Virus record (IMG/VR): IMGVR_UViG_3300017720_000014
Coordinates: 1-43,440 of that record
Strand: one strand, 5' to 3'
From: a virus
Length of the DNA: 43,440 bases
Shown in pieces: positions 932 through 40,902 of the stretch; positions within the stretch are counted from its first letter, which is position 1, and every line of letters begins with the position of its first letter. Made by a program: the position numbers and the translations under genes. The notes under the pieces are model-generated. The model had not been told where the DNA came from. It did not search any database and worked only from the letters and a program-made list of their open reading frames with translations.

Positions 932-937
932 TTGTTT

Positions 938-1042: not shown

Positions 1043-1043
1043 A

Positions 1044-1211: not shown

Positions 1212-1237
1212 GATTGTTTCAATCCCATACTACACCA

Positions 1238-1245: not shown

Positions 1246-1294
1246 GCACGAACTGAGTAATTCTGCTTATTTTAGTGTGGGAATCACCACTAGG

Positions 1295-1683: not shown

Positions 1684-1707
1684 ATACAGTGTGATTCTAC
1701 TGTATAT
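1682..1707 (-). promoter_or_regulatory. Hairpin that covers the start codon of the 74-aa gene
   Basis: Two perfect 9-base complementary arms (ATATACAGT at 1699-1707 and ACTGTATAT at 1682-1690, minus-strand reading) flank an 8-base loop. The first two bases of the ATG at 1683-1681 are in the 3' arm. In mRNA this could hide the start codon or mark a processing site. There is no U-run, so it does not look like an intrinsic terminator. Confidence 0.5.
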
Positions 1708-1713
1708 ATTATA

Positions 1714-2109: not shown

Positions 2110-2130
2110 GTTTCTCTCTAGAAGGCACTT

Positions 2131-2553: not shown

Positions 2554-2554
2554 G

Positions 2555-2818: not shown

Positions 2819-3009
2819 TTCTTTTCTCCAAGGGATTCTGATCCACCAACAGCAAAAGGATTGTATTTTGCTCTGGCTAACCTATACATCTTCTCATGTA
2901 TAGTTATATCATCTTCTTCGTCTACACCAGGAGGTTGATAATCACATGGCATAGTATCGATGGGGTCATCAGTTGCAATAGGCATAAGATCTAATGGGTT
3001 AATTGTCAT
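2815..3009 (-). CDS. Hypothetical protein, 64 aa
   Basis: A 64-residue acidic protein between gp15 and the DUF6321-like gene. The N-terminal half is rich in Asp, Pro and Met (PLDLMPIATDDPIDTMP), followed by VDEEDDITIHEKMYRLARAKYNPF, a likely helix. No family recognised. Both ends are joined to neighbours by ATGA overlaps (with gp15 upstream and the 87-aa gene downstream), which is good evidence for translation. No membrane segment. Confidence 0.75.
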   Translation of the reverse strand: MTINPLDLMPIATDDPIDTMPCDYQPPGVDEEDDITIHEKMYRLARAKYNPFAVGGSESLGEKK

Positions 3010-13957: not shown

Positions 13958-14166
13958 AATTTACTTGCTATTTTTGATAACATATCTTTTATGTCAGATA
14001 TGTCTTTCTTCATATTATCTATCTCTAATCTTTCCATCTTTTTTTGGGAGTTTCTTTGCTGGTAAGCAGCGAAAGAGGAACTATCAGTATTAATGATAGC
14101 TCCTGTGTTTTTATCTCGACAAAAATTAGGATGTCCTTCAACTGGGATTAACGATGATTTGGTCAT
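13954..14166 (-). CDS. Small coiled-coil protein, 70 aa
   Basis: A 70-residue protein. The N-terminus (LIPVEGHPNFCRDKNTGAII) looks like a short structured segment with one Cys; residues about 40-70 form a coiled coil (RLEIDNMKKDISDIKDMLSKI). The start overlaps the stop of the 2,443-residue gene as ATGA, and its own stop overlaps the next ATG the same way, so this small gene is inside a coupled series. I recall the phrase VEGHPNFCRDKNTGAI from cyanophage small proteins, unnamed. Virion or assembly role by context only. Confidence 0.8.
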   Translation of the reverse strand: MTKSSLIPVEGHPNFCRDKNTGAIINTDSSSFAAYQQRNSQKKMERLEIDNMKKDISDIKDMLSKIASKL

Positions 14167-21498: not shown

Positions 21499-23070
21499 TT
21501 AGAATTCTAATACGATTTTGATGTCTTCTTTTTGGCGTTCATTTCTTGTAATAGATGGTCTATTATCAAGGTAAATAATTTCACCTGTTCTTTTATTTAT
21601 CTCAGGTCCAGCAAGACCACTTGTAAACTGTACGCCAAGGTCTACAACTTTACCAGATGGTGTAGTTGTTGAGATTCCAGAGAAACCTCCATCTATGTTT
21701 ACACTGAATCCACTAGAGATGACAGCATCACCAGCAGCAGTAAAATCAACAACTTTTGCATCTCCACCAACACCTATGTTATCAGTTTGATCATATAATG
21801 AAGGGTGAAGATAAAGATTCCTATCTTGGAAATACTTGATTACTGTTGTATTCACATCATATGAAGCAACATAACCTCTGGCAGTTCCAACACCAGGTAT
21901 ATTTTGTGTGATTTCTGAACCGACTGCAAGAGTCTGTGTAAGATCACCAGAAAATTTCAAAGCATTAGCTGCGGAATATTCTGATGTGTTAAGAACAGAA
22001 GTAGATCCAGCACCAGCAGCAACTGGATTCTTAACAACTCCTACTTGAGAGAATGTTGTGTCCGAAATAAAATCATATGTAGAATTATCAAACCTAGTAT
22101 AAATCAAAACTTTATCAGTTCCTAATTCCTTATAAAGATCAAATCCATGACCATTAGAAGGAGGAATAATCGGTGTTAATTTAGCAAACTTTGTAGCACT
22201 ACCATTAATAGAAGAAAGATCAACCCTACCATAACTGTAACCTTGTCCTCCTGCAGTCACTTTTGCATAAATTAATTGACCATTGGTATTGGTCTGAACT
22301 CGGACTTTACCCCCAGTTCCATCACCTAGTATATCAACTTCTATCGGAGATGCAAGGAAGGAATAACCCTCACCTTGAGCATCAATAGAAACAACTTTAA
22401 TTTGATTGTTATTTACCGTAGAATCTCCGTTATCTCGAACCACTTTGACTTCATTCTCAGTGCTTGATGACCATTCGTTAGGAACAGCAACATACTCAGT
22501 AGAGTCAAATTTTACAATATCAGCAGGAGGAACCGTAAATAGATACTTCCACAAATAACCGTCGCCACTGACACCAGCAGCAGATGGTTCAAGATCAGTA
22601 AATGTAGGTTCATCAAGAGATGCACCAGCAGTAGATGTAATACCTGCAGATCCGTTATCAATGCAAATATAGACTCTAAAGTCTTTATTGATTATGTAAA
22701 AGTTTGCAGAATAGAGTCTACTAGAGTTAGAAACTAGTGATCTATTAGTTACATCATAATCATGACGGTACATATCATATGATGTACCTTTTGTCCATTG
22801 AACTTTTCTTACTAATCTACGAACATCACCTGGTAAAACTTTTCTACCAAACATCATCGTATCGTATACATGGTTTATGTAACTAATACTATCTGTTGGT
22901 GATGGTGGTTGAACAGTTGTACTATTCCATGTACTTGTTCTTCCATATCCAGTTTCTGTTGGATTAGCCAGACCCAAAAAAGTATAATAGGAGTTATTAC
23001 CACTAATTACCGATTCAACGAAATTATTAGCATTAATGATCCTAAACTGGTCTGTGATAATTGCGGCCAT
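21499..23070 (-). CDS. 8: Baseplate wedge protein gp8
   Basis: A 523-residue baseplate wedge protein (T4 gp8 is 334). The N-terminal half matches the gp8 family layout: ITDQFRIINANNFVESV, then a segment YYTFLGLANPT, then VYDTMMFGRKV, then VRRLVRKVQWTKGTSYDMYR, then FRVYICIDN and YLWKYLFTVPPADIVKF. In T4, gp8 joins gp6, gp7, gp10, gp25 and gp53 in the wedge. The extra length is a C-terminal beta region with GxGY-like repeats (GEGYSFLASPIEV, GQGYSYGRV). A perfect late promoter stands 34-41 bases upstream, inside the end of the giant gene, so gp8 can be expressed apart from it. No clear Shine-Dalgarno sequence. Confidence 0.9.
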   Translation of the reverse strand: MAAIITDQFRIINANNFVESVISGNNSYYTFLGLANPTETGYGRTSTWNSTTVQPPSPTDSISYINHVYDTMMFGRKVLPGDVRRLVRKVQWTKGTSYDMYRHDYDVTNRSLVSNSSRLYSANFYIINKDFRVYICIDNGSAGITSTAGASLDEPTFTDLEPSAAGVSGDGYLWKYLFTVPPADIVKFDSTEYVAVPNEWSSSTENEVKVVRDNGDSTVNNNQIKVVSIDAQGEGYSFLASPIEVDILGDGTGGKVRVQTNTNGQLIYAKVTAGGQGYSYGRVDLSSINGSATKFAKLTPIIPPSNGHGFDLYKELGTDKVLIYTRFDNSTYDFISDTTFSQVGVVKNPVAAGAGSTSVLNTSEYSAANALKFSGDLTQTLAVGSEITQNIPGVGTARGYVASYDVNTTVIKYFQDRNLYLHPSLYDQTDNIGVGGDAKVVDFTAAGDAVISSGFSVNIDGGFSGISTTTPSGKVVDLGVQFTSGLAGPEINKRTGEIIYLDNRPSITRNERQKEDIKIVLEF

Positions 23071-23103: not shown

Positions 23104-23111
23104 TATTTATA
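23104..23111 (-). promoter_or_regulatory. T4-type late promoter overlapping a stop codon
   Basis: The minus strand reads CTATAAATAC, an exact TATAAATA octamer 34 bases ahead of the gp8 start. The TAA stop of the giant gene (23107-23109) lies inside the octamer. It would start late transcription of gp8, the DUF4815 protein and the downstream fiber and neck genes. Confidence 0.83.
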
Positions 23112-26100
23112 GAAGTTTGGGCAGAGCTCCTGTTCCCCTATGCCCAACACCCCTTCGTAAAACTAGAGGGAACTTGCTAAGTTCATTGTCATAAGACAAT
23201 CCCTTGACATCAAGAGCAATAGGAGATCCTGCTCTGTTTACATCGCCAAATCTTCCCCAAGTGAAGTGAGCGTAAGCAAATCCAGTGGATCCTACGCCAA
23301 CCATATCACTAGTGTCAGTGTATGATGCTATGTTAGCAGTAATGATGCCTTGACGACCACCATTACGGTAACTAATTGCACTTGCATAGTAAATATTATC
23401 TCCATAATATGTGCTGATAGAAACTATATCAGTGTCATGCGTATCAATACTTGTTATAGCAATTCCTGCTGTATTAATACCTGTTCCATATAATTTGAAT
23501 GGATAGTTTGTTGAGAATCCTGTTGCATCATTACCATTGTTAACATAATCTTGATTATCAATTAGAATCTCAAGTGCCAAATCAGTACCGATACCAGCAG
23601 TAGTTCCTATACCAGTAACCACACCTATGTATCCAGCAACATCAGCAACTAATGGTTCTATACCAGATAGATTTTCAAAATTAACACCAGTGGCAGCAGT
23701 TGTACCAAAACCAACAGGAGCAATAGCAAGTAAACCAAACGATTCTGTTAGTAAACCATCAGTATCTTTAAAGTTGCCAACAGTATCTACAAAAACTGCA
23801 GTATCTGTTGTAGAAAGAACTCCAATAATATTTCCAATAGGATTGATTTGAGCTTCATATGAATCTCTTGCTTTAGAAACTAAAGAACCATCAATAAACA
23901 AATCTCCCTTCTGCTTAATCCATGTCATAGGTTTGTAGTTATCGTTACTAACACCTGGACCTTGATAGAATGGAGTTTCTACCGTAGCAGCACTATCAAT
24001 TCTCTTGATAATTCTATCTTCAATTTGTGCAAAGTTTGACTGATCTTTAGTAACTTTATTGAACTGCATTTCAGCACTCTTATCTAATCTTAAAGCGTCA
24101 CCTTTCTTGATATTTTCATTAATATCAAATATGAAACTATCTTGTCCTATTGTTCCTCTGTAGAAGAAGATAACAACATTATCATTTACAGTTGGAGCAC
24201 TAGAGAATTCTATAATAGAACCACCAGTAAAGACATAGTTTAAATTTGGTTCTTGAAGTACTCCGTTAATGAATACTAATAGAACAGTAGATAAATCAAT
24301 TTCAGTAGAGTCTTGATCGTTTCTGTCAATTTCAAAACTGACCAACTGTGACTGATAGAATAGTGGGAATCTCATCTGATTTCCATCTTGATTTGGTTTG
24401 ATGTTATCAAGATAATCAATATTACCAAACTGCCAAGAAGCAACTGTATCAGTAAAGACTTCTATTACTTCTAGTTCAAAGTTTCTAAAGTTATCACCTG
24501 CTTTAGGATCTGTAGAAAGACCAGCAACAGTAAATACATCTCCACGCTTAAATCCATATCCTTTCTTACTAAACTCCCAGTTAGAAACTTCAGCAAGAGT
24601 TGATCCAATACCAGTGGCAGTTTGAATACCAGATATTTGAACACTAACAGAACAACCAACACCAGTTTCTGTTCCACCACCAATTCTTGATAATCCAACA
24701 ATAGGTAGATTTTCACCGTTTGGTTCAGGAGCAAAGACGGAATCATATTCACCAGTGTATCCAGTTCCACCAGCACCAATACTGAATATCAAAGATCCAC
24801 CAGCACCAACAAGAGCATTAATTTCTGCATTGACTCCTTTAGTTGGAGATGACAATGCAATACCAATAGTTCCTAATCCAGTTTGATATCCAGAACCAAA
24901 GGATAGAGGATACCATTGAGCGACAGTACCACCTTGAACATAAGTATGCCCAATTGTGTTAGGTCCGACATTTACTTCAAATGTGCGAGCAGAAACAATA
25001 CCAGAGATAGGATATGCCTCATCGAAACTTGGGAATAGATTGCTTGTAACACCAACTTGAACTACTCCACCACCAGTATAATCATGCTGTAAAGTAGAGA
25101 CTCCAACGAATGTTTCAAATGATGTTGTTGTTCCAACAGATCTAACTTTAAAGTGATAACCAAATTTTCCTGTTGGATATGTTTTAGTACCATATGCACA
25201 AGTAACACCTATACCTCTCAATTTTAAACTTTCGGGAGCAACTAATCCATGATTCTGAGCAGTAAATCTAACAATACCAGTCTCAGGATTATATACTGCA
25301 TTTGATACAGTTAAAGCAGCACCTGCCCAAGAATCGATATAAAGTGTGCTAGAAGCAGCACTTACAAATCTGTGTTCAAATCCACCACCAGTTCTAATCG
25401 CTCCAGTTGATGCATTGGCAAAAGTATGAGCATAGTTTCCACCACTAATAACTGCGTTTGATGCTTCATGACCTGCCATGATATCATAACGATGCTCACT
25501 AGTATCAGTTGAAATACCTGCTTGGAAAGTAACAGTTCCATTTTGTTTTCTAATACCATTTGCTACTGAACCAGCAAATCTATGAACATATTGATCACCA
25601 GTATTAGTCTTACCAACATCTATAGCAAATGAATTTACTGTTGTACTTGCAACCGCTACCCAATCACCGCTAATTGGATCGGTAATTCTTGGATATAAAT
25701 GAGGGGTAACATAGTTATCTTGTGAACACTCAAGTTTAATTGAATTATTCTCGATAAGAACATAATTGCCGTTCATCATTCCATGACCAGTAGCAGTTAC
25801 TGTCATAATACCTGCAACAGGATCATAAACAATATCTTCTGCAGTATCTAAAGTATATCCAGCAGTAATTTTAATTGGTTGGTCAAATGATCTATCACGC
25901 TTCTGATCCATACTACCAACACCAGCACTAACGAATGTATGGTTGTATGCACCGCCACCAACAATTACTGATCTAGTAATACTATTAGGTGTTCCTGATA
26001 CAAAAGTATGTGTGGCATTGTCATATGACTTCATGCCATTGGTTCTGAATGTATTAGTAGTTACATTAGAAACTTTAATCCATGTATTATGATAAGGATC

Positions 26101-29100
26101 TTTAGGTCTAGGATATCCACAAACTTTTTGATTATTATCTCTAGTACATGTGAAGTTAACTGATCCATCATCAAACTTGACATAATCACCATTTGAAAGT
26201 CCATGATTATTGACTGTAACAGTCATAATACCAACAACAGGATCATAAGATGCACTGATTGGTGTTAACTTATCATTTGGAACATGATGATGAGTTGATA
26301 CATTACTTGATGGTTGAGTTGGTAGTATCTGGAATGAAATAGTACCTACTGTAGTAGAAGCAATAGAGACTGCAGTATTATAACCAACAGTATCAGTTGA
26401 CCTTGGATAATAATGTATACTCTGGAAAGTATCAAGACCACATCTAAATGCTAATGATTCTGGAGATATTCTTATGCTAGTACCAGTCATGAATTCATGA
26501 TCAGGTATACTAACTGTCACAATACCAGCAGTGGGGTCATAGACAGCACTAGAGATAGCAAAAGGTTGTATAGGTGACTTACCTACATTAACAGCAAATG
26601 ATGTTGTTCCTATGCCTGTAATTGGTACCCACTTACCACTGTAAGGATCGGTTGATCTTGGATATGATTTGGTAGATGTTCCACCATCCATATCGCAAGT
26701 AAACCTTATAGAGTCGTTATCAAATTTTACAAAGTCTCCATCATGTATTAAACGACCACCAGGAATTACAGTAACTGTCATGATACCAGCAGTAGCATCA
26801 TACTGAGCACCATTAATAGTTTGTGTATCAATAATATTGCGTGGATATGTATGAGTTGAAATATAATTGTCTGTCTCACATCTAAAGATTAGAGAACCTT
26901 CTTTCAACTTAATAGAAGTTCCATCTTTAAGAGGATGTTGTCCGATAGTAGCAGTTACAATACCTGTTGATGGATTGTAAGTTGCAGTAGTAATACTATA
27001 ATTAACAATAGGAGAAGTTCCTACAGTTATGGCAATACCTGTTGCAGTAGTAGATGCAACGGAAATTGCTCTGTCAAAATATGGATCAGTTGTTCTAGGA
27101 TATGACTTAGTAGTGGAAAGACCATCCATCGCACACTGGAAATTGATTGATTCTTGATCAATCTTGATACTAGTTCCAGACATAATATTATGTGACCCAA
27201 TAGTCACTGTCATGATACCAGCAACTGCGTCATAAACAGCATCTACTGGTGTATATCTTACCTGAGTTGATATACCAACATTTACATCAAATTCATCTCT
27301 GGTTACATTCCTAACTTCTAAGAACTTATTGTTTGCAGGATCAGTAGATCTTGGATATGTATGATTGGTTCTATAACCATCCATATCACAAGTAAAGGTC
27401 AATCCATCAGTTACTATACCTACTAAATTTGGATCAGTAAATCCATGTGTAGAGTCTGTAATTATTGTAGCAATACCAACAAGATGATCATATACAAATG
27501 ATGTTATACCGAGAGTTGTTATTCCTGAGATGTAGTCAGAACAAGTAAATTCTAAACCAACTAACTTAGAAAAATCTTCAACTCCAAATCTATGTACTTT
27601 TGCAGTAGATACAGTTGCAAGTCCAGTTGTCTTATCATAATCCACACTTTCGATATCTATGAAATCACTAGTTGTTGGTATACCAGTAAAACCAGTGATA
27701 GCACCATCTTTACCAGTAGTTACTTGAATCTTAGCACCTTTAAATGGAGCATATCCTTGACCTGGTGTGGATGCAACAGAAATTATGATGCCACCTCTAG
27801 GTAGTTGATTCTGGTTAATATCACCTTCATCTATTATTAGATCAGTAAATCCAAACGAACTAATACCTGTATAGTTAACACTAGCAATACCTCCAAGACT
27901 TTGTTCAATAATCTTGAAGTTTGCAACACCTTCATTGTTCTCACCAAATGGTGCTTGGAACATACTGTTAATAAACAGAACTCCGTTACCACCAGTTGAA
28001 CCAATACCAGTTACAGCAACACCTGTAGATGTTAGTGGGAATATATTTTCTAAACCATCAAAACCATCTGAGTTGTCATCAAATACTTGGTTAGTTGCAT
28101 AATCTTGTCTTAAGTAAGTTCTTCCACTAAATGTTGCTCTAGGAGTAAGAAGATTACCAGCATCAATAATACCCAAGTCACCACCAAGAGGTGCTTCTGT
28201 AAAATAGATATCACTATCAACAATCTGGAAAGCACCTCTATAAATTCTTGCAGTTGATCCAGCAGAATGCACTGTTGCTGCACTACCGACTGAACCTCTT
28301 TCTATTTCAACAAGACTCCAAGTTCCAATACCAGTAATAGGTCCTGTAGTTGTGCTACCAAAACCAACTGTTTGAACAATATTATATTCATCATCTATTT
28401 TAAGTAAATCGCCAGATGTTATTGTACTTAATCCACTTAAAGCAAAGCAAGTAACAAAACCGTTAACAGCAACATCTAAGTCGTATGTTACTGATGTATG
28501 TGATAGAGGTTTCTGTACTAATCCATTAAGAGTAATCATGGATTTAGAATCTCTCTTATCCATTGTAAACTTGTGAAGGTTACCTTGACCTTTATCTTGT
28601 GCAAAAGTAACTGCTTTACCAACTCTAGCATCAGTAATTGATGTGGAGATAAAGAATTGATTATTATTAGATTTTACAATAAAACATTCACTTGGAAGTA
28701 CAGTTGATCCATATCCAGTAGAATACTCTAAAGAACTGGCAGCAATTCCAATAATATTAGAATCTGGTAGATATGATACTTTTTCTGTATTAGAGAAGAA
28801 ATGTTTTAATGTAATAAGTCCTGTTTCTTTATTAATCTCATTAACATTTTGAGGGTTAAATGCTCTTTGGTAAATTGGAGTACTTTGATACTTTAATCCA
28901 AACTTTCTAAGGTTTCTATTGTTTATACCCAAGTAAGTATTTTGAGTTTGATTTTCAAATACTTGTCCATAGTTAAATGATCCAATACCAGCAAGAAGTC
29001 CATTAGGATCATTTTGTTGATATATTATCTCATTATAAGAGAAGATACTAACAATACCTGTTACTCCTGCATCTGGATAGAATTCTAGATTAACTTGGTC

Positions 29101-32100
29101 ACCACTAAACTCAGCACCAAATGTTCCAATACCAGTAGTCGTTCCAACTGCAGCAATAGGTCCTTGAGATAAGAATGTATCTACTTTAACTGGATCTGAT
29201 AAAACATATATTTGATGGAATGTTTGAGTACTTCCGTAACTTACAGAAACTGTAGATTTGAAAGATAGATCAGTAAATGATGTAATTCCACATACAGTTG
29301 CAATTCCTGTTGTTGCAGAGGAACCTACAACTATTCTTCCACTTCTTTCCGATCCTTCGGGTGTAAATGGAATGTTAAAGTGCTTCACTGATGTAGTTCC
29401 ATATCCAACAGGATTGAAATTTAAGAACTTACATCTAAGGTCTATGCTATTTGCCTCACTGTGAACATATTTAAGTTTTACAACTCCACCTGCACCAGTA
29501 TCAATAGAAGAAGTAAATGTTCCCATAAACTGTGGAGAAGATAATCCACCAAGACTTTGCCTATTATTAAATGCTCCTACCTCAGTCAAATAAGTATCAA
29601 CACCATCATGTTGTAAGACTACCTCATGATAATCTACTTTATTAGAGTTTTTATTAATGACTACGATATGTCCATGAACACCTGCCAAATTAACTGTATT
29701 GATTCCTACAATATCGGTTGTTGTGCCCGAACCTACTGAAATATTAACACTCCTAACTTCTGCATTACCTAATTCAGTTTGACCAGTACCAACAGCATCA
29801 GCAAAACCTTGCTGGAATGCTTTAATATCATAGTTTGTATCAAATGGTTCGTAAGGTTTAATTCTTACCTGTGTTTGTCCATTATTAATATTATATTGAG
29901 CAAAGAACTCACCATATCCAGTTGCTAAACCAACTTGGTTTGTATTGTTGAGAGCACTCTTTTGAACTAAGAAAGTATCATCATTACATGAAATAAGAAT
30001 TAATTCATTTAATTGAAAATGATTCTTAGCTGGATCTTGTGCTTCGTGTATTGTTTGTACAAGATATCTTGAGAAATATCTACCAGCAATAGTAGCAGCA
30101 ATAACTCTACTGTCACTTAAATCGTTTGATTCATTGCTAATGAATTGGGAACTAATGTCATCATGTAAGAGAACTCTATTTGTTTTACATAGAATAAAAT
30201 CTGCAAGTCTTGTTTGCTGAAGTTCTATAAACTTAGATAGATTATCAGCAGAATTTGCATCTCTAGCAATATCAAAATTGTAAATAGAATCTACTCTAAG
30301 TGGATCACTAACAAAGTCAAGAACTAATCCACCAGCATCTGCAGCAGGAATAAATGTATCACCAGCATTACCTTTTGCTAAAATTTGAGTGTTTGCAAAG
30401 TTTTTAAATCCTGCAGGGTGTACAATATCATTAACATATGTAATTAGTTCTTCATATGTCTTTTCACTCTCAATAGCATAAGACATATTCTGATAGTAAT
30501 CATTATCTGGTAAGAATTGATTATTATCACCAATTAGACCAATATTATCTGCCCAACCTACATTCGTATCAATTGTTGATGCAATTTCAAAATAACCATC
30601 AAATTCTGTAATTGCTTGAACTTCGCATACATCACCACTATTAGTTCCTAGTAATTTATCGTCAATTTGAAGATTTATAGATCCACTAACAACCATGATG
30701 CCTGTATTGACATCAATATCGGTCATTATCAAATCTGTGAATAAATCACTGTTTCTTCTTAATGGTTCATTAGTTCTAAATTCTGAGAATGTTTTAGTTG
30801 CATCAAATCTCGCAAGATCTCCAGATTTTACAATTTGACCAAAACCAGTAACCACAGTTGCACCAATACCAGGATTACTACTCAATCCAGTGTATGTAAA
30901 TGTAACCTGTCTTGGGTTTACTGCACTATTATAATCTGCTATCTGAAAATCAATAAATTTATAATCTCCAGAGTTGAATCCGTCTCCAGTACCAGCAGTA
31001 AAATCTATACCCTCAAGAAAAACAGATTCGCCAATAGTAAATGGTTCCGTGTCATATCCAAGAATAGGCGTAGTAATTTTACAAGTAAGAACTCCTACAT
31101 CTGAAAATGCCTCAATAATACTAATACCATTACTATTTCTTAAAGGTGCAATACCATAATCGTTACCTGTTAAACCTCTAGGTTCAACAATAACATTGAC
31201 TTTGTTTACAGCAGTATCACTCAATTCCGCAGTAAGAAGACCATTAGTAACTATTTCTCCAGTTGTCTTATCAAATACAGCAAGAGCAGGTGCATTAAGA
31301 TATGATCTACCACCAAATAGAACTGATGCGGAGAGAACCTTACTCGCATTCTTAATTAGTAGAATTCTAGGTAAGAATGCATCTGGGTTCAATGTACCAT
31401 CAGAAGGATATCCATAAACATCTGTAGGAACACTTACATCTCCTAGTAGGTTGATATCTGTTCCAAATAATTCTAATTCCGCACTAATACCACTAGATCC
31501 AACAGAAGTTACAGCAGGAAGTCTCTGATATCCAAATCCACCGTTAATAATTCTTATTTGCGATATACCGCCAGTTGCTGCAGCACCTGTATGACTATAA
31601 TATAATTCAGCACAATCTTCTTGAGTGTAATGATCTTTTTCTGGTTCTGCACCAATGTTAGCAGTAAATACAGTTCCAGCTACTCCAGTTGCAATATACT
31701 GCTTTGCATTATACCCACTGTCAGCATATTTTATCTCATTTCCGTATAATACATCAGTTTCGCTAGTTGTAATATATCCACCTTTCTCTATTGCATAATA
31801 AAGAGTGTTTTTAAGACTATCACTATAATTAATCTGCTTATATGGTAGATCAGGAGGATTTGTTGTTCCGATACCAACTGTACCCACTCCAACAACTTCT
31901 AGATTTGCAGTAGATCCTGTTCCGACATATTCGTTAAAATTATTTCTATCATAGAAGAATTTGAGTTTTGCTCCTAATAGACTAGGATCATTAAGGTCAA
32001 ATACAATATTATTTTCACGGAATACTGTAACTGGTGGATTGATAGGATTGATAGTTTGTCCACTATATCCTACAGATGTAAATCCAACAACTTCAGGTGG

Positions 32101-35100
32101 ATCCGCACGAAGTTGTTTTTCGGTATTTGCTAGTTGGAATTGATCTGCGTCAATCTTTAAAACATAATATGTTCTTTGTTCTAATCCAGCAGGAAGTTGA
32201 GATGGATCTCCACCAGAACCATACATTAAAACTTTAAATCCTGTATCTAAAGCATGATCCTCAACAGTAAATATACTAGTTGTGGTATTAACTCCGCTTG
32301 TAGGAATATCTAAAGGATTAATAACTGTATAACCGTCAATCAGTTTAACCGTTGCTCTTGTAGAAGTACCAATACCAGTAGTCAATCCTGTTTTGACTAT
32401 TAAATCAAATCTATCATTTTCTTCTAAACCATGATCTTCAGTTGTTTGAATAGTTACCTGACTTCTTCTAACAGTTGCAGTTTCTTGTTTATAGTTAGTT
32501 ACTACTGAATAATTTGCCTTATCATCACCTGTTGTAGTAAAGAACAGAGCAGGACCGTCTGTATTAGTTTTAAGACCAATAGTATCAGGTGATTTATTGA
32601 TAACATAAAAATCACCACTCAAAGCACTTGGAGCAGTATACGGACTTATGGAATCAGTAGCAAAAAGGTCAGTATTACCTCGTTTGTCGAAGGTGACCTT
32701 AGCATTAGTTTTAAGACCATGATTAGGTAAATGTATAGTTTGTGCAAGAATAGATCTTTGTTTAGTAACTCCGTTAAGAGATACATCAACACTAGTCGAG
32801 ATTCCAACCGTTGTTCCAACACCAACAGATTCTTTAGGGTTAAAATAGATTAAATTCTGAAAACTAGAGTCAAAAGGATTTGTCTCTACAGGAACTGTGA
32901 ACTCACTAGTAAAGTATGTAACAGCAGATCCTACTGCAGCAGTAGTAAAACCAGCATATCTTTCTATTCTAACAATTTTTTCATTAGGGAAGAAACCAAG
33001 AATACGAGCAGTTTCTGTACCAATACCAATAGAGTCACCTACTGCAACATTATCAGGAACAAAGTCAACTCTTAGATCTGTAATAATACCAGTATAACCA
33101 TTATCTGTCAAAGATGCGGAATAACTTGCAACTGCAATCTTTTTAAATCCTTCTAATCCTTTAATATAAGTTGATATGCCAGTTACTCTTACAGTATCTG
33201 ATCCTTTAAATTCATGATACGGAGTTGCTTTGAAAACAACACCCTGTCTGGTGTGTTTGATAGGAAGATTTGATAATGTAATTACAGAACTACTAATATT
33301 ATCAATTGGTTTTCCGTGAAGTTTCTTAACTTCTGCATCTAGACCAACACCATTTGTGCCTGTATTATCAAAAATTACTTTCTCACCAATACTGTATCCA
33401 GAACCTCTACTTAAGATATCAATGGTTTCTACAGCACCTTGCAATAGATTGCTTGGATTTGAAACCTGATTATTAGTTCTATATGGTTGGAACAGATAAT
33501 CATAACTAACACCATCTCCAAATAAGTTATATGGTTGTGTATTTCTTACAAGTTCTGAATTATTAAAGTCAAAAGTAACTTGATCTAGTAATTTACCTTT
33601 TACAGTATTTTCTTCAATAGCAAAAGATCTATATGTGTCACCAACAAAGAATGGGAATTGGGGATCATTTAAAAGATCTACTGTGGCAAAATACGCATAG
33701 ACTCCTTGAGGGAAATCGGGAGTTTTAGTAAACCTTCCATTATGTTCGTCTAAATCTCCGTTTCCAGTGTAGACATAATCGTCTATAAAATATCCATATG
33801 GGAATAATGATGAAGGAGGTCTATTTTCAATATTGGTCGCTGATATATCATAACTAGATACCATCTTCTTAACATCAGACTGAACACTATCAACATCAAC
33901 AGATCCATAAGCACCGTATATTGGATTTCCATCATATGCCCAACCAATGATAGGAGAATGCCCTGTTCCATCATCTGCAAAGAAATTTCTAATAGTATTA
34001 CCGTATCCAACAATGTTAAGTGCTAGACCGTCTCCAATTGGTTGTAGGAAGTCCATTTCGGACTGATTCAAGCGATATGCCTTATTAACAGTTAAACCCC
34101 TTACAGTCGCTTCTGCCTTAAACTCAGAACCAACAGGCACAACATTAACACTAGTATTAGTTGCTGCATATCCAACACCGCCAGATATAACTTTAACATC
34201 TGTGATTGAACCACTATCATTTACAATAGCTCTTAAGATTGCACCTTGAGATGTAGTTGCTACACTAACCACATTGAGATCAGGAGGTCCTACATAACCA
34301 CTTCCTCCATTCGCAACAAATGCATCAGTAACACTACCATTTGCAACAACGATACCAATCTGACCCAAATTTCCTGTAGGGACACTAATGATAGGTGGAT
34401 TTGGGAAATTTAAAATTGTGGATCCATAGTTTGAACCTTGGTTATACACTAAAATATCATCAATCTGTCCCTTAACAACTGGAGTCGCTGTAGGTTCTTT
34501 TTCTTGTTGATCTTTAGTTAATACTTTAACTTTACATACAATTGGCGGATATTTGAAAAGGTGATATCCAGAACCAGCACCCATAGAGTCTAGGTATACA
34601 TTCTGACGATTAACATAATTTGTTTCCGTTGCCTCTCTATCGCCTTTGTTACCTGCTTCCGCAAGTCTAAACTTATCGTCGTCTATCTTTAGTACTTGAT
34701 ACTGTTTCGTTGTACTGAGACCTGTTATGACAGCGTTTGTGCCATTTTCATACTCAACTACTTCTCCATCTGTAAGTCCATGATTAATAAACTCAACAGA
34801 ATCATTAAAAGTATTAATTCCAACTGGTTTTACTAAAATATTTCTATTTGCGTAACCTGAACCAGTATCTTCTAAACTAATTCTACTAATAGTGCGTTTT
34901 TTATCAAAAGTACGGAAAATATGAAGACCTGCGTTACTTGCAGCAGCATTTTCTTCAATTAATATTGTATTAATACCAATAATCGAATCTTGCTTATTAT
35001 TATGAAGAGTAAAGTCTTTTGAGTTAATAACATTAATATAATAATCTTGACCACCAAATAATGTTAAAGTATCATTAACTCCTCCTGTTGTAGCAACACC

Positions 35101-37761
35101 AATGTTGGTACCACCGTTATTATCGTATACAAGTCTATCTCCAGTTAAGAAGTTATGATCTTTATTAAGATTGAATGAATTATAAGTTGAACTAACATCA
35201 CCACCAAGATTAGTGCTAATACCATTAAAAAATACTTGTCTAAATCGTTCTTCAACTAATGCTCTACCAATAGCACCACTACCATTACCACCATAAATTT
35301 CTACGCTAATAACCTTATCAAGGTCATAGTCAAATGGGTCAATAAGAATACTTGATACAATTCCGCTTAAAACTGGAACTGCACCTGCAGTATTTCCGAT
35401 ACTAACAGTTTCGTCAGTAATAGTGATGTTTGGAGGTGCCTGAACATCATAACCTGCACCACTGTTTAAAACATTGAGTTTATTTACAGGACCGTAGAAG
35501 AGTGTATCCGCACCTTTATAGTTTAATATCTCAATACCATTCACAAGCATTCCTGTATTACCATCTACGGTAATTTCGGAAGTAGTTTGACCTTCTTTAC
35601 CGCTTTTGAGTTGCTGCTCTAAAACATATCTTTTTATAGGTCTTGCAGGGAAGATATTCCTTTTTCCTTGACTAGCAAGTATAAAATCATGTCTACCTGT
35701 GGGTAAAGTTGGTGCAACAAAGAATGATGGTAAATTTGCTTTAATAAAAGAACGAGATGGATATAATTTTATTTTATTTTTTGAACTTAGTACTTCTACA
35801 AAATAACTTGGAGAATCTAACGCACCAATAACCTGTGTTCCTGGTTCTGGTGCATATATGATTTCATCTCCAGTTTCAAATGGAACATCTGCTGCAAAAG
35901 AAATAATACTATATCTGTTTTCTACACTATCGTATCCTTCCCAGTTTCCAGAAGCAATAGAAGGATTTATCAACTCCGCATGAATTCTATCAGAATCTAT
36001 AGTGTAACTAGGAAGAGAACTAGAAGCAACATAACCTTCTCTCTTTGATGATGCTGATTTAGACTCATCTACGATATATGCATTATTAATATCTGTTAAT
36101 AACTGTTCTTGTCCACCTTTTACTGGAACAATTGAAGATTTTACTTTATTTTGCAATCTTCGCACATCATATAATAAAAGAGGGTCAAGAGTAGGAATAC
36201 TACCGTCAAGACTGATAGATGAAGCAGTTGTATCAATACTATCAACAATTAGAGAGCTAGCAACAAGAACTTCGCTGTTTCTACGCAAAATTTCAATTTT
36301 ATCACCAACTTTTAAACTGCTTTTTTCAATAGTACCAACAAGGGTAAATATAGATCCAGCAAAACTTAAAATTTCGTATCTAGTAGATGTATTGTAAACC
36401 CAACTATTAAAAAACACCTCTTCATAGGATTTACTGATAACTGGGTTGGCAATATAGCGTCCTAAGTTCTTTACCTTGATAGCCGAGGTAGATTTTAAAT
36501 TTCGGAGAGGTCTGCTAGTATTAAATTTAGAAAGTACACCAGTTAGACGCATTTCTACCTTTTTAGTAGAATCTCCACCCTCATACCCATAAACAATGTT
36601 AAAAGTAGATACTGTACTGTTGTTTGGTATCTCTATACTAACTGGAGGAGCAACATCAAAGAATTGATTGATGCTTTTTGAGTCATATGTAAATGTCTGA
36701 TAAAATGATGTGCCAATTTCACCAACTTTGATTGTACCAGTGCTAGAAAACCCAATTGTAGAATCTACGGTAATAACAGACGCACCAATACCAATTATTC
36801 CAATATTACTACTTCGTCCAGGTACTACGAAGGTACCATCAGTCAAACCTCGTTCATCAAAACCTGTAAAGAGAGAAAGTTTAAAATAATCGTCTCTAAT
36901 TAGCGATACTTCAGAAATAGGACCTGACGCTTCGTTTAATTGAGGGTTTGTTGGATCATTATCTTGGAAAAGTGTCTGACCAACTAATTCTTGAGGATTA
37001 CCAGATATTAATTGAACAGAAACAGTCTTTCTACGCAAATAATTCGCAAAAGATGGTTTTATTAGATATTTCTCTAAATCATTGATTTTTGGATCAACTC
37101 CAAACAGTGCTTTGAAAAGAATTTTAAAAGATGCACGAGTTCCCTTTGCTTCATATAAACTTCTTGCTTCTTTTATGAAATTATTAACATCTAACTGAGG
37201 TGAAAGCGTTACTCCCTCTAAACCAGGAGCATACATCGCTTTTAAATTCTTATAAAATTCTTTTAAGAATAAAGAACTAAGATTTACTACATTTGCACCA
37301 GTAGTATGAATTCCAGCAATAGTTTGTTGCCATACTAATTCATCTGGGTCGTTTTGTTTGGAAAATGTAGAGATTCCACTAAAACCACGCCAAACACCAG
37401 TAAAACTATTTGTAGTTACGCCACTATAACTGCATATTTCATTATCGATCTGAAAAAGACCATATTTTTGAGGATATCCATCAGTACTATCTACTGTAAC
37501 TGTAGTATCTGTTGATGAAATAGTACCAACAAGTGTAGTTGTACCTCTTATTACATCAGTAGTTAAATTATCAACTTTAATATACGCATCAATATTCTCC
37601 GCAATGTCTGCAGGTCCACCTTGGAAGTCTTGAGAGATATAATACTGTTCTAAGAATTTGGAGAACAGAGGATTCTCTGACTTAGCAAATTCTGGTATAA
37701 TTTCGCTAACGACTTGATAAGTTTTTACCCTAGGACTTAAGGGAGAATATGTTTCGATCAT
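23107..37761 (-). CDS. Giant baseplate wedge protein at the gp7 position, 4884 aa
   Basis: A single uninterrupted 4,884-codon gene between gp6 and gp8, where T4 has gp7 (1,032 aa). The first 265 residues (EFAKSENPLFSKFLEQYY, KEFYKNLKAMYAPG, ARSLYEAKGTRASFKILFKALFG) are compact and look like the conserved wedge part. Afterwards come many 'GxGYxxxP' repeats, several 'HGL..GD.V' modules, a YHYH-like domain (about 1265-1375; SPIIGWAYDGNPIYGAYG, DEHNGRF, GVYAYFAT), eight 'YDP..GIMTV...FxC..D...YPR' modules (about 3425-4235), and near the C-terminus an 'FINGVLQEPNLNYVFTGG' fiber-type domain. It starts one base after the gp6 stop. The gp7 assignment rests on position; the repeats suggest a large surface appendage fused to the wedge. 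Confidence 0.87.
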   Translation of the reverse strand: MIETYSPLSPRVKTYQVVSEIIPEFAKSENPLFSKFLEQYYISQDFQGGPADIAENIDAYIKVDNLTTDVIRGTTTLVGTISSTDTTVTVDSTDGYPQKYGLFQIDNEICSYSGVTTNSFTGVWRGFSGISTFSKQNDPDELVWQQTIAGIHTTGANVVNLSSLFLKEFYKNLKAMYAPGLEGVTLSPQLDVNNFIKEARSLYEAKGTRASFKILFKALFGVDPKINDLEKYLIKPSFANYLRRKTVSVQLISGNPQELVGQTLFQDNDPTNPQLNEASGPISEVSLIRDDYFKLSLFTGFDERGLTDGTFVVPGRSSNIGIIGIGASVITVDSTIGFSSTGTIKVGEIGTSFYQTFTYDSKSINQFFDVAPPVSIEIPNNSTVSTFNIVYGYEGGDSTKKVEMRLTGVLSKFNTSRPLRNLKSTSAIKVKNLGRYIANPVISKSYEEVFFNSWVYNTSTRYEILSFAGSIFTLVGTIEKSSLKVGDKIEILRRNSEVLVASSLIVDSIDTTASSISLDGSIPTLDPLLLYDVRRLQNKVKSSIVPVKGGQEQLLTDINNAYIVDESKSASSKREGYVASSSLPSYTIDSDRIHAELINPSIASGNWEGYDSVENRYSIISFAADVPFETGDEIIYAPEPGTQVIGALDSPSYFVEVLSSKNKIKLYPSRSFIKANLPSFFVAPTLPTGRHDFILASQGKRNIFPARPIKRYVLEQQLKSGKEGQTTSEITVDGNTGMLVNGIEILNYKGADTLFYGPVNKLNVLNSGAGYDVQAPPNITITDETVSIGNTAGAVPVLSGIVSSILIDPFDYDLDKVISVEIYGGNGSGAIGRALVEERFRQVFFNGISTNLGGDVSSTYNSFNLNKDHNFLTGDRLVYDNNGGTNIGVATTGGVNDTLTLFGGQDYYINVINSKDFTLHNNKQDSIIGINTILIEENAAASNAGLHIFRTFDKKRTISRISLEDTGSGYANRNILVKPVGINTFNDSVEFINHGLTDGEVVEYENGTNAVITGLSTTKQYQVLKIDDDKFRLAEAGNKGDREATETNYVNRQNVYLDSMGAGSGYHLFKYPPIVCKVKVLTKDQQEKEPTATPVVKGQIDDILVYNQGSNYGSTILNFPNPPIISVPTGNLGQIGIVVANGSVTDAFVANGGSGYVGPPDLNVVSVATTSQGAILRAIVNDSGSITDVKVISGGVGYAATNTSVNVVPVGSEFKAEATVRGLTVNKAYRLNQSEMDFLQPIGDGLALNIVGYGNTIRNFFADDGTGHSPIIGWAYDGNPIYGAYGSVDVDSVQSDVKKMVSSYDISATNIENRPPSSLFPYGYFIDDYVYTGNGDLDEHNGRFTKTPDFPQGVYAYFATVDLLNDPQFPFFVGDTYRSFAIEENTVKGKLLDQVTFDFNNSELVRNTQPYNLFGDGVSYDYLFQPYRTNNQVSNPSNLLQGAVETIDILSRGSGYSIGEKVIFDNTGTNGVGLDAEVKKLHGKPIDNISSSVITLSNLPIKHTRQGVVFKATPYHEFKGSDTVRVTGISTYIKGLEGFKKIAVASYSASLTDNGYTGIITDLRVDFVPDNVAVGDSIGIGTETARILGFFPNEKIVRIERYAGFTTAAVGSAVTYFTSEFTVPVETNPFDSSFQNLIYFNPKESVGVGTTVGISTSVDVSLNGVTKQRSILAQTIHLPNHGLKTNAKVTFDKRGNTDLFATDSISPYTAPSALSGDFYVINKSPDTIGLKTNTDGPALFFTTTGDDKANYSVVTNYKQETATVRRSQVTIQTTEDHGLEENDRFDLIVKTGLTTGIGTSTRATVKLIDGYTVINPLDIPTSGVNTTTSIFTVEDHALDTGFKVLMYGSGGDPSQLPAGLEQRTYYVLKIDADQFQLANTEKQLRADPPEVVGFTSVGYSGQTINPINPPVTVFRENNIVFDLNDPSLLGAKLKFFYDRNNFNEYVGTGSTANLEVVGVGTVGIGTTNPPDLPYKQINYSDSLKNTLYYAIEKGGYITTSETDVLYGNEIKYADSGYNAKQYIATGVAGTVFTANIGAEPEKDHYTQEDCAELYYSHTGAAATGGISQIRIINGGFGYQRLPAVTSVGSSGISAELELFGTDINLLGDVSVPTDVYGYPSDGTLNPDAFLPRILLIKNASKVLSASVLFGGRSYLNAPALAVFDKTTGEIVTNGLLTAELSDTAVNKVNVIVEPRGLTGNDYGIAPLRNSNGISIIEAFSDVGVLTCKITTPILGYDTEPFTIGESVFLEGIDFTAGTGDGFNSGDYKFIDFQIADYNSAVNPRQVTFTYTGLSSNPGIGATVVTGFGQIVKSGDLARFDATKTFSEFRTNEPLRRNSDLFTDLIMTDIDVNTGIMVVSGSINLQIDDKLLGTNSGDVCEVQAITEFDGYFEIASTIDTNVGWADNIGLIGDNNQFLPDNDYYQNMSYAIESEKTYEELITYVNDIVHPAGFKNFANTQILAKGNAGDTFIPAADAGGLVLDFVSDPLRVDSIYNFDIARDANSADNLSKFIELQQTRLADFILCKTNRVLLHDDISSQFISNESNDLSDSRVIAATIAGRYFSRYLVQTIHEAQDPAKNHFQLNELILISCNDDTFLVQKSALNNTNQVGLATGYGEFFAQYNINNGQTQVRIKPYEPFDTNYDIKAFQQGFADAVGTGQTELGNAEVRSVNISVGSGTTTDIVGINTVNLAGVHGHIVVINKNSNKVDYHEVVLQHDGVDTYLTEVGAFNNRQSLGGLSSPQFMGTFTSSIDTGAGGVVKLKYVHSEANSIDLRCKFLNFNPVGYGTTSVKHFNIPFTPEGSERSGRIVVGSSATTGIATVCGITSFTDLSFKSTVSVSYGSTQTFHQIYVLSDPVKVDTFLSQGPIAAVGTTTGIGTFGAEFSGDQVNLEFYPDAGVTGIVSIFSYNEIIYQQNDPNGLLAGIGSFNYGQVFENQTQNTYLGINNRNLRKFGLKYQSTPIYQRAFNPQNVNEINKETGLITLKHFFSNTEKVSYLPDSNIIGIAASSLEYSTGYGSTVLPSECFIVKSNNNQFFISTSITDARVGKAVTFAQDKGQGNLHKFTMDKRDSKSMITLNGLVQKPLSHTSVTYDLDVAVNGFVTCFALSGLSTITSGDLLKIDDEYNIVQTVGFGSTTTGPITGIGTWSLVEIERGSVGSAATVHSAGSTARIYRGAFQIVDSDIYFTEAPLGGDLGIIDAGNLLTPRATFSGRTYLRQDYATNQVFDDNSDGFDGLENIFPLTSTGVAVTGIGSTGGNGVLFINSMFQAPFGENNEGVANFKIIEQSLGGIASVNYTGISSFGFTDLIIDEGDINQNQLPRGGIIISVASTPGQGYAPFKGAKIQVTTGKDGAITGFTGIPTTSDFIDIESVDYDKTTGLATVSTAKVHRFGVEDFSKLVGLEFTCSDYISGITTLGITSFVYDHLVGIATIITDSTHGFTDPNLVGIVTDGLTFTCDMDGYRTNHTYPRSTDPANNKFLEVRNVTRDEFDVNVGISTQVRYTPVDAVYDAVAGIMTVTIGSHNIMSGTSIKIDQESINFQCAMDGLSTTKSYPRTTDPYFDRAISVASTTATGIAITVGTSPIVNYSITTATYNPSTGIVTATIGQHPLKDGTSIKLKEGSLIFRCETDNYISTHTYPRNIIDTQTINGAQYDATAGIMTVTVIPGGRLIHDGDFVKFDNDSIRFTCDMDGGTSTKSYPRSTDPYSGKWVPITGIGTTSFAVNVGKSPIQPFAISSAVYDPTAGIVTVSIPDHEFMTGTSIRISPESLAFRCGLDTFQSIHYYPRSTDTVGYNTAVSIASTTVGTISFQILPTQPSSNVSTHHHVPNDKLTPISASYDPVVGIMTVTVNNHGLSNGDYVKFDDGSVNFTCTRDNNQKVCGYPRPKDPYHNTWIKVSNVTTNTFRTNGMKSYDNATHTFVSGTPNSITRSVIVGGGAYNHTFVSAGVGSMDQKRDRSFDQPIKITAGYTLDTAEDIVYDPVAGIMTVTATGHGMMNGNYVLIENNSIKLECSQDNYVTPHLYPRITDPISGDWVAVASTTVNSFAIDVGKTNTGDQYVHRFAGSVANGIRKQNGTVTFQAGISTDTSEHRYDIMAGHEASNAVISGGNYAHTFANASTGAIRTGGGFEHRFVSAASSTLYIDSWAGAALTVSNAVYNPETGIVRFTAQNHGLVAPESLKLRGIGVTCAYGTKTYPTGKFGYHFKVRSVGTTTSFETFVGVSTLQHDYTGGGVVQVGVTSNLFPSFDEAYPISGIVSARTFEVNVGPNTIGHTYVQGGTVAQWYPLSFGSGYQTGLGTIGIALSSPTKGVNAEINALVGAGGSLIFSIGAGGTGYTGEYDSVFAPEPNGENLPIVGLSRIGGGTETGVGCSVSVQISGIQTATGIGSTLAEVSNWEFSKKGYGFKRGDVFTVAGLSTDPKAGDNFRNFELEVIEVFTDTVASWQFGNIDYLDNIKPNQDGNQMRFPLFYQSQLVSFEIDRNDQDSTEIDLSTVLLVFINGVLQEPNLNYVFTGGSIIEFSSAPTVNDNVVIFFYRGTIGQDSFIFDINENIKKGDALRLDKSAEMQFNKVTKDQSNFAQIEDRIIKRIDSAATVETPFYQGPGVSNDNYKPMTWIKQKGDLFIDGSLVSKARDSYEAQINPIGNIIGVLSTTDTAVFVDTVGNFKDTDGLLTESFGLLAIAPVGFGTTAATGVNFENLSGIEPLVADVAGYIGVVTGIGTTAGIGTDLALEILIDNQDYVNNGNDATGFSTNYPFKLYGTGINTAGIAITSIDTHDTDIVSISTYYGDNIYYASAISYRNGGRQGIITANIASYTDTSDMVGVGSTGFAYAHFTWGRFGDVNRAGSPIALDVKGLSYDNELSKFPLVLRRGVGHRGTGALPKLL
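25070..27480 (-). repeat. Eight coding modules of the YPR type in the giant gene
   Basis: Eight related segments of about 55-140 residues each: a first half 'VYDPxxGIMTVTxxxHxxxxGxxIK' and a second half 'SIxFxCxxDxxxTxxYPRxxDP'. YPR triplets are seen in seven of them; the last (near 25070-25310) is degenerate with YPT. Between copies 6-8 shorter 'HTFVSAG/HRFVSAA' segments also repeat. One further copy is in the fiber gene near 9350-9610. Boundaries are approximate. Confidence 0.87.
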
Positions 37762-37762: not shown

Positions 37763-39682
37763 CTACTGTCTGATTAGCGATCCGTTAGAGTAACTAGAGG
37801 TGACTTTATATCCTATGCCAGAAATTTGCTGACCAGATGATATTGTGTCTCTTACGATATTTATCGTAGTATTTGACATGTCCAAACTTAAGTAAATGTC
37901 CTTTAATCCTATAACATCGTTAGATTCTGGATATGCCTGAATTTCAATGATGTCATTATCCTTAACTGTTGATGAAATGTTGATAGTATTGAGTATTACT
38001 TCACCTTTTACATAATCTACAGTACCAGCATTAGGAACAACAACAACTGCATCCTCTGATGCGGAAGTAGCAGGTTTAAATACAGCAATATCACCCATAA
38101 TACCATTAGATCTTGGTATATCAGTAAAATACACTTCACCTTCAACACCACTAATACCAAATCCAGTAGATTTGATAGTTCCACCACCTGTTTTTACATT
38201 AAATTGATTACCAAAGCATAATTCATATTGAGCAGACTGATTTATGAGTGCTTTTAGGTCTCTACGAATAGTAACCTTCGTAATATTGGAAGTAATTGCT
38301 GAATCTGTCTGATCAATGATTCGTTGAGACTCAGAATACTTAAATCTACCACCAAATGCGTTCAAATTAGCAGATCTTCCGTACTCAGTAAGAGATGTAC
38401 TGACTTCTGCCTTAAGTTGGTCTTTATCATCCATAATACTGTTGTTATAATAGACGAAAGAGTCCAACTCTACATACAAAATCTTTAAATCTTCAATTCG
38501 TTGGTTAATTCCTGCAATTGCATACTGTTTTAAGTCATTCAGTATGTTCTGCTTAGTAAAGTCAGATAAGAATGTACCATTTTTAGGTTTTATACTTAAA
38601 ACTACAGTTCCAAACTCAGGAGGATCCAATTCCTCACCACCAACAACAGAAACAGACTCTGTATTTGGATAAACAGACTGAACTATTGCTTCATAATCCC
38701 TAGGTGTAACCGCCCTGTTCTGTGCGGAGTACATTCTAGGTGCAAAATATCGTATAGAGTCAATTGCTTCGATATCAGTACCGTTTCTAGCGGTCTGACT
38801 AGCAATTACTGTTACATTGTTTGTAGATGAGAGTGAATTTCCTGCATCATCTACTATATTTCCTGAGAAAGTAAAGAATTTACCTTCATTCCCATCCTTA
38901 CCATCAGTTATAATGTAAGAAATATCAATTTCATCACCAATTTCTAGTTTTTTACCAAACAGACCATCTCCAAATAGTAATTCATATGTCTCATTCTTAA
39001 TTTCTTGTATTAGATATACATTTGAGACTGGAGTAACCTCAATAATATTGTCAATTCGTGAAAATGATAGTCCTGCAGACGATCCAGACTTCTTAACAGT
39101 TACTTTAAGTGAGTTTAAATCAATAAATGAGTTGTCGAGAATGAATCTTTGATCAGAACTACCATTTACAGTAAATTTTTTAGTTAAAAGTGTACCTTGA
39201 TAGACAGTTAATCCAGAAAATTTACCAGTTCTAGGAGAATTATTACCACCTATCCCTCCAGAGTCCAAAGGACTGGTTACAGTTACATCTTCTGGGACTG
39301 AAAAAGTATAACTTGTGTTGCTTACAGCACCAACTAGTGCCAAACCTTTCTTTAAAGTGACAGTATTACTATTTCCTGCAAATTTAAACTCAAAATCAAC
39401 CACTGCTTCAGCAGATCTTCGTGATCTTGGTACATATCCTATGTTTCTAGCTAAAGAAACAACATTTTCTCGTAGTGTTGCTGAATCCAAGAAGGACTCA
39501 TTAGCAACCATATTACTATTAAAGGCAGTTATATATGAATTATACGCTAATATATCGACAATGATCGACATATTTGACCCTTCAAAGTCAAAATCCTTAA
39601 AATCAGAGTTAGCTCTCAGGTAATCCTTTACAGATTCCTTGATTTCAGCAAAATTTAAGTTAGTAAATTTAGTAAATGGCAT
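37763..39682 (-). CDS. 6: Baseplate wedge protein gp6
   Basis: A 639-residue protein (T4 gp6 is 660) that forms the ring holding baseplate wedges together; it is related to the gpJ family of contractile tails. The visible signature is DFKDFDFEGSNMSIIVDILA, then YNSYITAFNSNMVANESFLD, then ARNIGYVPRSRRSAEA near the N-terminus, then APRMYSAQNRAVTPRDYEAI and VQSVYPNTESVSVVGGEE in the middle, all typical of gp6. C-terminal residues about 500-639 are beta-rich. It follows gp25 with a five-base gap (probable ribosome site AGGTAATAGGA), and the giant gene starts one base after its stop. Confidence 0.95.
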   Translation of the reverse strand: MPFTKFTNLNFAEIKESVKDYLRANSDFKDFDFEGSNMSIIVDILAYNSYITAFNSNMVANESFLDSATLRENVVSLARNIGYVPRSRRSAEAVVDFEFKFAGNSNTVTLKKGLALVGAVSNTSYTFSVPEDVTVTSPLDSGGIGGNNSPRTGKFSGLTVYQGTLLTKKFTVNGSSDQRFILDNSFIDLNSLKVTVKKSGSSAGLSFSRIDNIIEVTPVSNVYLIQEIKNETYELLFGDGLFGKKLEIGDEIDISYIITDGKDGNEGKFFTFSGNIVDDAGNSLSSTNNVTVIASQTARNGTDIEAIDSIRYFAPRMYSAQNRAVTPRDYEAIVQSVYPNTESVSVVGGEELDPPEFGTVVLSIKPKNGTFLSDFTKQNILNDLKQYAIAGINQRIEDLKILYVELDSFVYYNNSIMDDKDQLKAEVSTSLTEYGRSANLNAFGGRFKYSESQRIIDQTDSAITSNITKVTIRRDLKALINQSAQYELCFGNQFNVKTGGGTIKSTGFGISGVEGEVYFTDIPRSNGIMGDIAVFKPATSASEDAVVVVPNAGTVDYVKGEVILNTINISSTVKDNDIIEIQAYPESNDVIGLKDIYLSLDMSNTTINIVRDTISSGQQISGIGYKVTSSYSNGSLIRQ

Positions 39683-39687: not shown

Positions 39688-40086
39688 TTACCTAGATGAT
39701 TCCAACATGAAGTCAAATTCTTGACTTGGGAAGTCCTGTCCTACAATATCATAAGCAACAAATACTTCAAATGTATTATCGTTGGGTTTGGGTTCCACTC
39801 TCACTGCAGTATTTGCAATACGACCCTCGAACCCCTTTAAAACATCAAAAATTTGCTGAGTTATGACACTTGCTGTACCATAATCAACAAAATCAAATAA
39901 AGATCTAGTCACATCTGTACCAAGATTAGACTGAAAAGGTCTTTCGCCACCTATAGTCTGGATTAAATTCCTTACAGCTCTCTTGATCGCATCCTCATTT
40001 TTAAGGACTCGTACATCTCCAGAAACAGGGTGGGGCGAAAAAGAAAGATCTATATCTTTAAATGCCTTGGAATTAGATTCAGCCAT
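39688..40086 (-). CDS. 25: Baseplate wedge protein gp25
   Basis: A 132-residue protein of the gp25/GPW family, the same length as T4 gp25 and related to TssE of type VI secretion. Visible motifs are DLSFSPHPVSGDVRVLKNED (N-terminal strand and helix), VRNLIQTIGGERPF (family core), LGTDVTRSLFDF and ANTAVRVEPKPND near the C-terminus (the family's conserved acid-Pro region). It sits at the wedge and helps start sheath assembly. A perfect late promoter lies 24 bases upstream, making it the first gene of the late baseplate unit with gp6 next. Confidence 0.95.
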   Translation of the reverse strand: MAESNSKAFKDIDLSFSPHPVSGDVRVLKNEDAIKRAVRNLIQTIGGERPFQSNLGTDVTRSLFDFVDYGTASVITQQIFDVLKGFEGRIANTAVRVEPKPNDNTFEVFVAYDIVGQDFPSQEFDFMLESSR

Positions 40087-40742: not shown

Positions 40743-40902
40743 TAATTTCTTTCATAGTATGTGATATTGTTGATGGATCTGGGTAGGAAATCTCATAGAA
40801 AGATTGAGCATAGTCGCTCATCAGATCCAGAAAGTCAGTCTCACTTATATCGGTGTGCTTCTCAACTCCACCGATATAGATTGTGTAAACTGTCTTTGGC
40901 AT
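40735..40902 (-). CDS. Hypothetical protein, 55 aa
   Basis: A 55-residue acidic protein starting at ATG 40902 (MPKTVYTIYIGGVEKHTDIS) and ending in a short amphipathic region with SYPDPSTISH. The frame is open further upstream to 41007, but ATG 40902 overlaps the TAA of the glycosyltransferase gene as TAATG, and the upstream extension lies inside that gene, so the short form is correct. No family recognised. The N-terminal strand pattern (VYTIYIGGVE) suggests a small alpha/beta fold. Confidence 0.75.
   Translation of the reverse strand: MPKTVYTIYIGGVEKHTDISETDFLDLMSDYAQSFYEISYPDPSTISHTMKEING

Follow-up and report, generated by a model that had tools for sequence, protein, structure and literature searches.

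A T4-like cyanophage of the Kyanoviridae type encodes, in one open frame of 4,884 codons, a protein that profile and fold comparisons identify as the baseplate wedge protein gp7, and we propose that it joins a gp7 wedge core to a long peripheral arm whose length varies (probability about 0.7). The source is a virus contig of 43,440 bases, the whole of which is called here the window. By sequence and predicted fold, about the first 300 residues are the core of the wedge and homologous to T4 gp7 ~680-840. In the proposed arrangement six gp7 wedges would form the baseplate ring, and the remaining ~4,500 residues would project from it as small beta domains strung one after another. Close to the end of the protein, ~87-residue beta units form a cassette at a fixed site, with a copy number that differs between close relatives. 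The gene and its neighbors are as follows.

23107..37761, minus strand: giant gp7 gene, 4,884 aa, one open frame; PHROG 2885 (baseplate wedge subunit)
37763..39682, minus strand: gp6, baseplate wedge, 639 aa; PHROG 219 (E=1e-190), Pfam Gp6-like_1st (E=3e-17)
21499..23070, minus strand: gp8, baseplate wedge, 523 aa; PHROG 438 (E=3.5e-147), Pfam Phage-Gp8 (E=2.6e-16)
39688..40086, minus strand: gp25-like protein, 132 aa, upstream of gp6 as in P-SSM2 and S-SRM01; sequence read directly

The frame starts with ATG, has no internal stops and follows the end of gp6 after a gap of 1 nt; gp8 lies downstream. The order gp25-gp6-giant-gp8 is the same as in T4 and the cultured cyanophages. The length of the frame rules out a chance origin. 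The PHROG 2885 profile matches the protein with E=0 and 2952 bits, the best stretch running from residues 11-3638 to profile positions 9-3494 of 4179. Its 4,884 residues, against 1,032 in T4, bear out the initial annotation's figure of about five times the T4 size.

Independent sequences leave almost no probability to the reading that the frame is an assembly or frameshift artefact. Of 64 IMG/VR loci that begin at the same start, 63 show no stop before the available stretch ends. Joining the overlapping pair of loci from each contig gave a complete single frame of 4,046-5,456 aa in 27 of the 28 contigs that span the whole gene, and cultured phages likewise have one continuous frame. A separately assembled, near-identical 58.8-kb contig (L020/L418) encodes a gp7 of, again, exactly 4,884 aa. 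The one observation on the side of an artefact is locus L056 (1 of the 64), with a stop at codon 648 and an ambiguous residue in its translation. The artefact reading is thus refuted, and the single intact frame between gp6 and gp8 is upheld by the frame itself, by Pfam and PHROG and by the independent contigs. Upstream of the baseplate genes a 251-aa ORF (40902-41657, minus strand) looks by eye like a glycosyltransferase-like protein, and PSSM2_106, of similar length, lies near the same place in P-SSM2. A PADLOC search gave no matches.

A tblastn search with the first 300 residues returned 459 phage records under Synechococcus phage, cyanophage or Prochlorococcus phage names, five of them "marine virus". 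The closest relatives of gp6 are Synechococcus phages, at up to 57% identity, indicating that the window phage is of the Kyanoviridae type and not close to any cultured member. Giant gp7 proteins of cyanophages, which form the family PHROG 2885, have been annotated for years. In cultured phages they measure 3,895 aa (S-SRM01), 4,749 (S-T4), 4,878 (Sf-CH8), 5,172 (S-SCSM2R) and 5,195 (P-SSM2), with extremes of 7,312 (P-SSM4) and 1,454 (S-CRM01). The window protein is middle-sized in the family and unexceptional for the group; the claim that it would be among the largest phage structural proteins stands for phages in general and falls within the family, where P-SSM2, P-SSM4 and S-SZBM1 make its size ordinary. 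Two members have been reported from virions. S-SZBM1_208 (6,619 aa), a homologue of the window gp7 by sequence comparison, was detected by mass spectrometry in purified virions with 71 peptides and 13.5% coverage (PMC9146016). S-CREM2 ORF122 (1,937 aa), taken as the same-position gp7 by its place between annotated wedge protein genes, was found in virions with 91 peptides (PMC10665884). The gp7 region of S-SKS1 (L005, HQ633071.1) is largely unannotated, its frame split among three frames with the look of sequencing errors or a decayed gene. Extra structural genes of ~500-615 aa occur between the giant gp7 and gp8 in S-SZBM1 (L492 11260-16232) and RB11-B (L009 5447-7093).

The gp7 wedge core pairs with two gp6 chains in contractile tails, and a counterpart of this core was found near the N-terminus of the giant.

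36868..37299, minus strand: conserved gp7 core, residues 155-298 (YEAKGTRASFKILFKALFG...LVGQTLFQ), found by hhalign to T4 gp7; the most conserved part among relatives
36541..37047, minus strand: predicted fold like T4 gp7 domain V, residues 239-407, found by VIA-align
37552..37722, minus strand: predicted N-terminal helices, residues 14-70, from AF2 secondary structure of low confidence
37273..37542, minus strand: beta domain between helices, residues 74-163, in the AF2 model; matched with a Z of 10.3 by a small beta-barrel from Vibrio phage VP1

With a profile made from 48 N-termini (A2), hhalign aligned residues 155-267 to T4 gp7 680-789 at E 3.4e-6 and a score of 56; the controls (eleven further T4 proteins from baseplate, neck and tail, ten shuffles and reversed gp7) scored 24 or less, with a best E of 0.026. 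A second profile alignment placed the core on T4 gp7 728-813 (E 1.3e-5), and T4 gp7 as a query matched PHROG 2885 at positions 196-224, the same columns as the core. Residues 1-640 of T4 gp7 found no counterpart in the giant's N-terminal profile (hhalign E 0.7). The AF2 model of residues 1-560 is of moderate confidence (pTM 0.42). VIA-align matched its predicted residues 239-407 to 762-839 of 5iv5_BJ (T4 gp7; Z 7.8, rmsd 2.0, 75 aligned) and to 763-839 of 9f4a_A0 (Klebsiella T4-like gp7; Z 7.7). A Z of 7.8 alone is only middling, but the match is in register with the T4 gp7 sequence alignment, and domain V of T4 spans 766-861. Foldseek by itself gave nothing significant for the N-terminal model. 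PDB sequences searched by hmmsearch with the N-terminal profile yielded no relative, the homology being too remote for this approach. The helical domain PF21428 and domain VI, PF21456, were not listed by a Pfam search of the giant; helices are predicted at 14-70, with low confidence, as noted above. The first ~265 residues had been described as a compact wedge protein; they are wedge-like, but the region extends further, with the core at ~155-300 and an alignable family block reaching to about 550.

A published claim bears directly on this assignment: T4 gp7 was said to be absent from cyano- and pelagimyophages, with VrlC as its substitute (PMC7029224, 2020). The rival candidate is also encoded in the window.

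14163..21494, minus strand: DUF4815/"VrlC" protein, 2,443 aa, candidate gp7 of PMC7029224; Pfam PF16075 (E=3e-67); proline run in its second half; homologue in S-SZBM1 labelled "baseplate wedge tail fiber connector"

If the cyanophages had lost gp7 and DUF4815/VrlC had replaced it, the giant would be a separate tail fibre; the ACG-2014h record (NC_023587.1), in which the DUF4815 gene is labelled as gp7, fits this account as well. The VrlC profile, however, matched T4 gp7 with E 0.63, like shuffled sequences (10 sequences against the single T4 sequence), whereas the giant has both the N-terminal match and the gp7 fold match to 5IV5 and sits between gp6 and gp8, so we consider the replacement very improbable. 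The profile match with its controls, the in-register fold match and the lack of relation for VrlC lead us to conclude, on profile and model evidence, that the giant between gp6 and gp8 is gp7. The identity suggested at the outset has accordingly held up under profile alignment with controls and a structural match to 5IV5 chain BJ at the same place, and it argues against the published statement that cyanophages lack gp7.

Beyond the family block the chain includes a recognizable domain.

33676..33969, minus strand: YHYH domain (PF14240; Pfam E=1.1e-23), residues 1265-1362, motif degenerated to YAYF

All 42 homologues inspected keep the domain, and none of the 42 has both name-giving histidines. 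PMC7824862 predicts metal-dependent hydrolase activity for YHYH (PF14240); judged by sequence, such activity is doubtful for the domain in the giant.

Length variation among the complete metagenomic relatives follows a cassette close to the C-terminus.

24898..27696, minus strand: repeat cassette, residues 3356-4288, represented by ~12 residues in S-SRM01 (blastp)
25072..27507, minus strand: eight copies of a ~87-residue beta unit (..YDPTAGIMTVTV..HG...G..VKF...S..FTC..D......YPR.TDP..), residues 3419-4230 (HMM of units)
23110..24897, minus strand: conserved C-terminal block, residues 4289-4884, present with or without repeats; a separate gene in phage B23

By blastp, window residues 1-3355 are collinear with S-SRM01 1-3313 and residues 4289-4884 align to 3325-3895, so that 933 residues separate the two blocks in the window and 3313 is joined to 3325 in S-SRM01. 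The eight recognizable units make up 17% of the giant gp7. The description of everything beyond the wedge as adhesin-like repeats is therefore set aside: the copies fill 3419-4230 only, and residues 1-3355 are collinear with a protein that has no copies. Across relatives, the unit HMM detected 0-14 copies, with none in S-SRM01, ACG-2014f, S-CAM7, RB11-B and B23. Among 27 complete metagenomic relatives with 1-14 copies, protein length follows copy number with r = 0.995 and 111 aa per copy, the points not being phylogenetically independent. In pairs whose bodies are 94-98% identical, the counts are one or two units apart (12/14, 1/2, 2/3, 2/3). The repeated stretches within the window array are only about 60-79% alike in DNA, which makes collapse of this array in assembly unlikely.

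Comparison of the window protein with a second locus, L022, suggests how the array evolves. Amino acid identity is 97.8% for units 1-5 and 87.9% for the body, and third-position identity in unchanged codons is 0.83 for array and body alike. The array is thus more alike in amino acids at equal third-position divergence, indicating that the unit is under stronger purifying selection and that the change lies in how many units there are. The high amino acid identity also raised the possibility of recent array swapping by recombination, which was rejected because third-position identity equals that of the body. A limited open literature search found no publication on the repeat cassette or on the structure of a cyanomyovirus baseplate, and a copy-number-variable cassette as the source of length variation seems undescribed.

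One copy of the gp7 unit was found elsewhere in the window, in a protein of 2,373 aa (6086-13207, minus strand).

9374..9613, minus strand: one gp7 repeat unit, at residues 1199-1278 of the fibre-like protein 6086-13207 (unit HMM E=9.7e-19)

The fibre-like protein has a Laminin_G_3 lectin-like domain at residues 1561-1705 and many degenerate "AKITSGVVTSLVGTYATI" repeats. The shared unit, in a protein with a lectin-like domain, speaks for a reading of the same gp7 in which the C-terminal arm is chiefly an adhesin that binds receptors through its repeats, and the weak fold likeness of the unit to the small barrel of phage endosialidases (phi92 endosialidase, Z 7.9) points the same way. The array, however, has changed less than the body although synonymous divergence is the same in both, which is not the pattern typical of host-range determinants, and the YHYH domain is without its name-giving histidines; on balance we regard a mainly adhesive arm as unlikely, though less so than the other alternatives. 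The best structural matches of the unit also include E1 enzyme barrels and the T1 tail tube; a function read from such matches was set aside, as they show no more than the general resemblance among beta-barrels. A model of residues 3833-4884 (mean pLDDT 43) failed outside the repeat units, leaving the C-terminal block without a fold assignment.

The distal part need not always belong to the same chain. In phage B23 (L010 2409-14188) gp7 is encoded by two genes of 2,845 and 1,081 aa whose stop and start overlap by 4 bases, the second aligning to window residues 2950-3355 and 4289-4754, and S-CRM01 has its 1,454-aa gp7 followed by separate genes. The B23 split indicates that the C-terminal part is able to act as a chain of its own, and it keeps alive the reading that the giant is translated whole and then cut into a short gp7 wedge plus at least one separate fibre. 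Against this, the frame is intact in 27 of 28 complete relatives, the data suggest neither a protease nor a protease site, and the S-SZBM1 homologue was reported with 71 peptides, a count for the chain as a whole; we judge such processing improbable.

Genes 10, 11 and 12 are reportedly missing from cyanomyoviruses (PMC2984593), so that the peripheral arm may plausibly serve as a scaffold or in attachment, taking over the work of T4 gp10, gp11 and gp12. The cassette would act as a spacer, determining the length or valency of the arm, and would not be a hypervariable domain for receptor binding. More tentatively, and at less than even odds, the reach or valency of the six baseplate arms may be tuned by the number of repeats at a fixed site (0-14) and not by sequence change. 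The variable cassette offers a concrete and testable handle on the purpose of so much extra mass in a marine phage baseplate.

Set against T4 gp7 (1,032 aa; 5IV5), the giant shares the core motif, the domain-V-like fold and the position between gp6 and gp8. The core lies at ~640-860 in T4 and at the N-terminus in the giant, T4 residues 1-640 are absent from the giant, and its ~4,500 C-terminal residues are without a counterpart in T4 gp7. The placement of the core indicates that the extension is C-terminal and unrelated to the peripheral part of T4 gp7. That peripheral part (1-640) was not counted as defining gp7, because the T4 gp7 ortholog XM1 gp17 has only 242 residues; its core bundle is N-terminal, and it binds spikes via residues 80-106 and 201-242 (PMC10457771). 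The giant resembles this minimal gp7, which has no arm, in what would be an N-terminal core bundle with additions at an internal loop and the C-terminus. By analogy, helices 14-70 may stand where minimal gp7 has its core-bundle helices (XM1 gp17 residues 1-48), and the cyanophage protein may have grown at the two spike-binding places of XM1, as the beta domain 74-163 and the C-terminal part.

The gp7 proteins of P-SSM2, Sf-CH8, S-T4 and S-SRM01 ("baseplate wedge initiator") have gene order, N-terminal core and YHYH domain in common with the window and can be aligned over most of their length, at roughly 30-50% identity (33% over 5,073 columns for P-SSM2). The repeat cassette is common to the window protein, P-SSM2, Sf-CH8 and S-T4; eight copies are present in the window, 11 were detected in P-SSM2 and S-SRM01 has 0. 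S-SZBM1_208 and P-SSM4 gp7 occupy the same position and have a homologous core and YHYH region, but both carry ~500 extra residues within the core block, near residue 117 and the end of the 74-163 beta domain, and their C-terminal parts are largely different; unlike the window protein with its eight copies, S-SZBM1_208 has no detected repeat.
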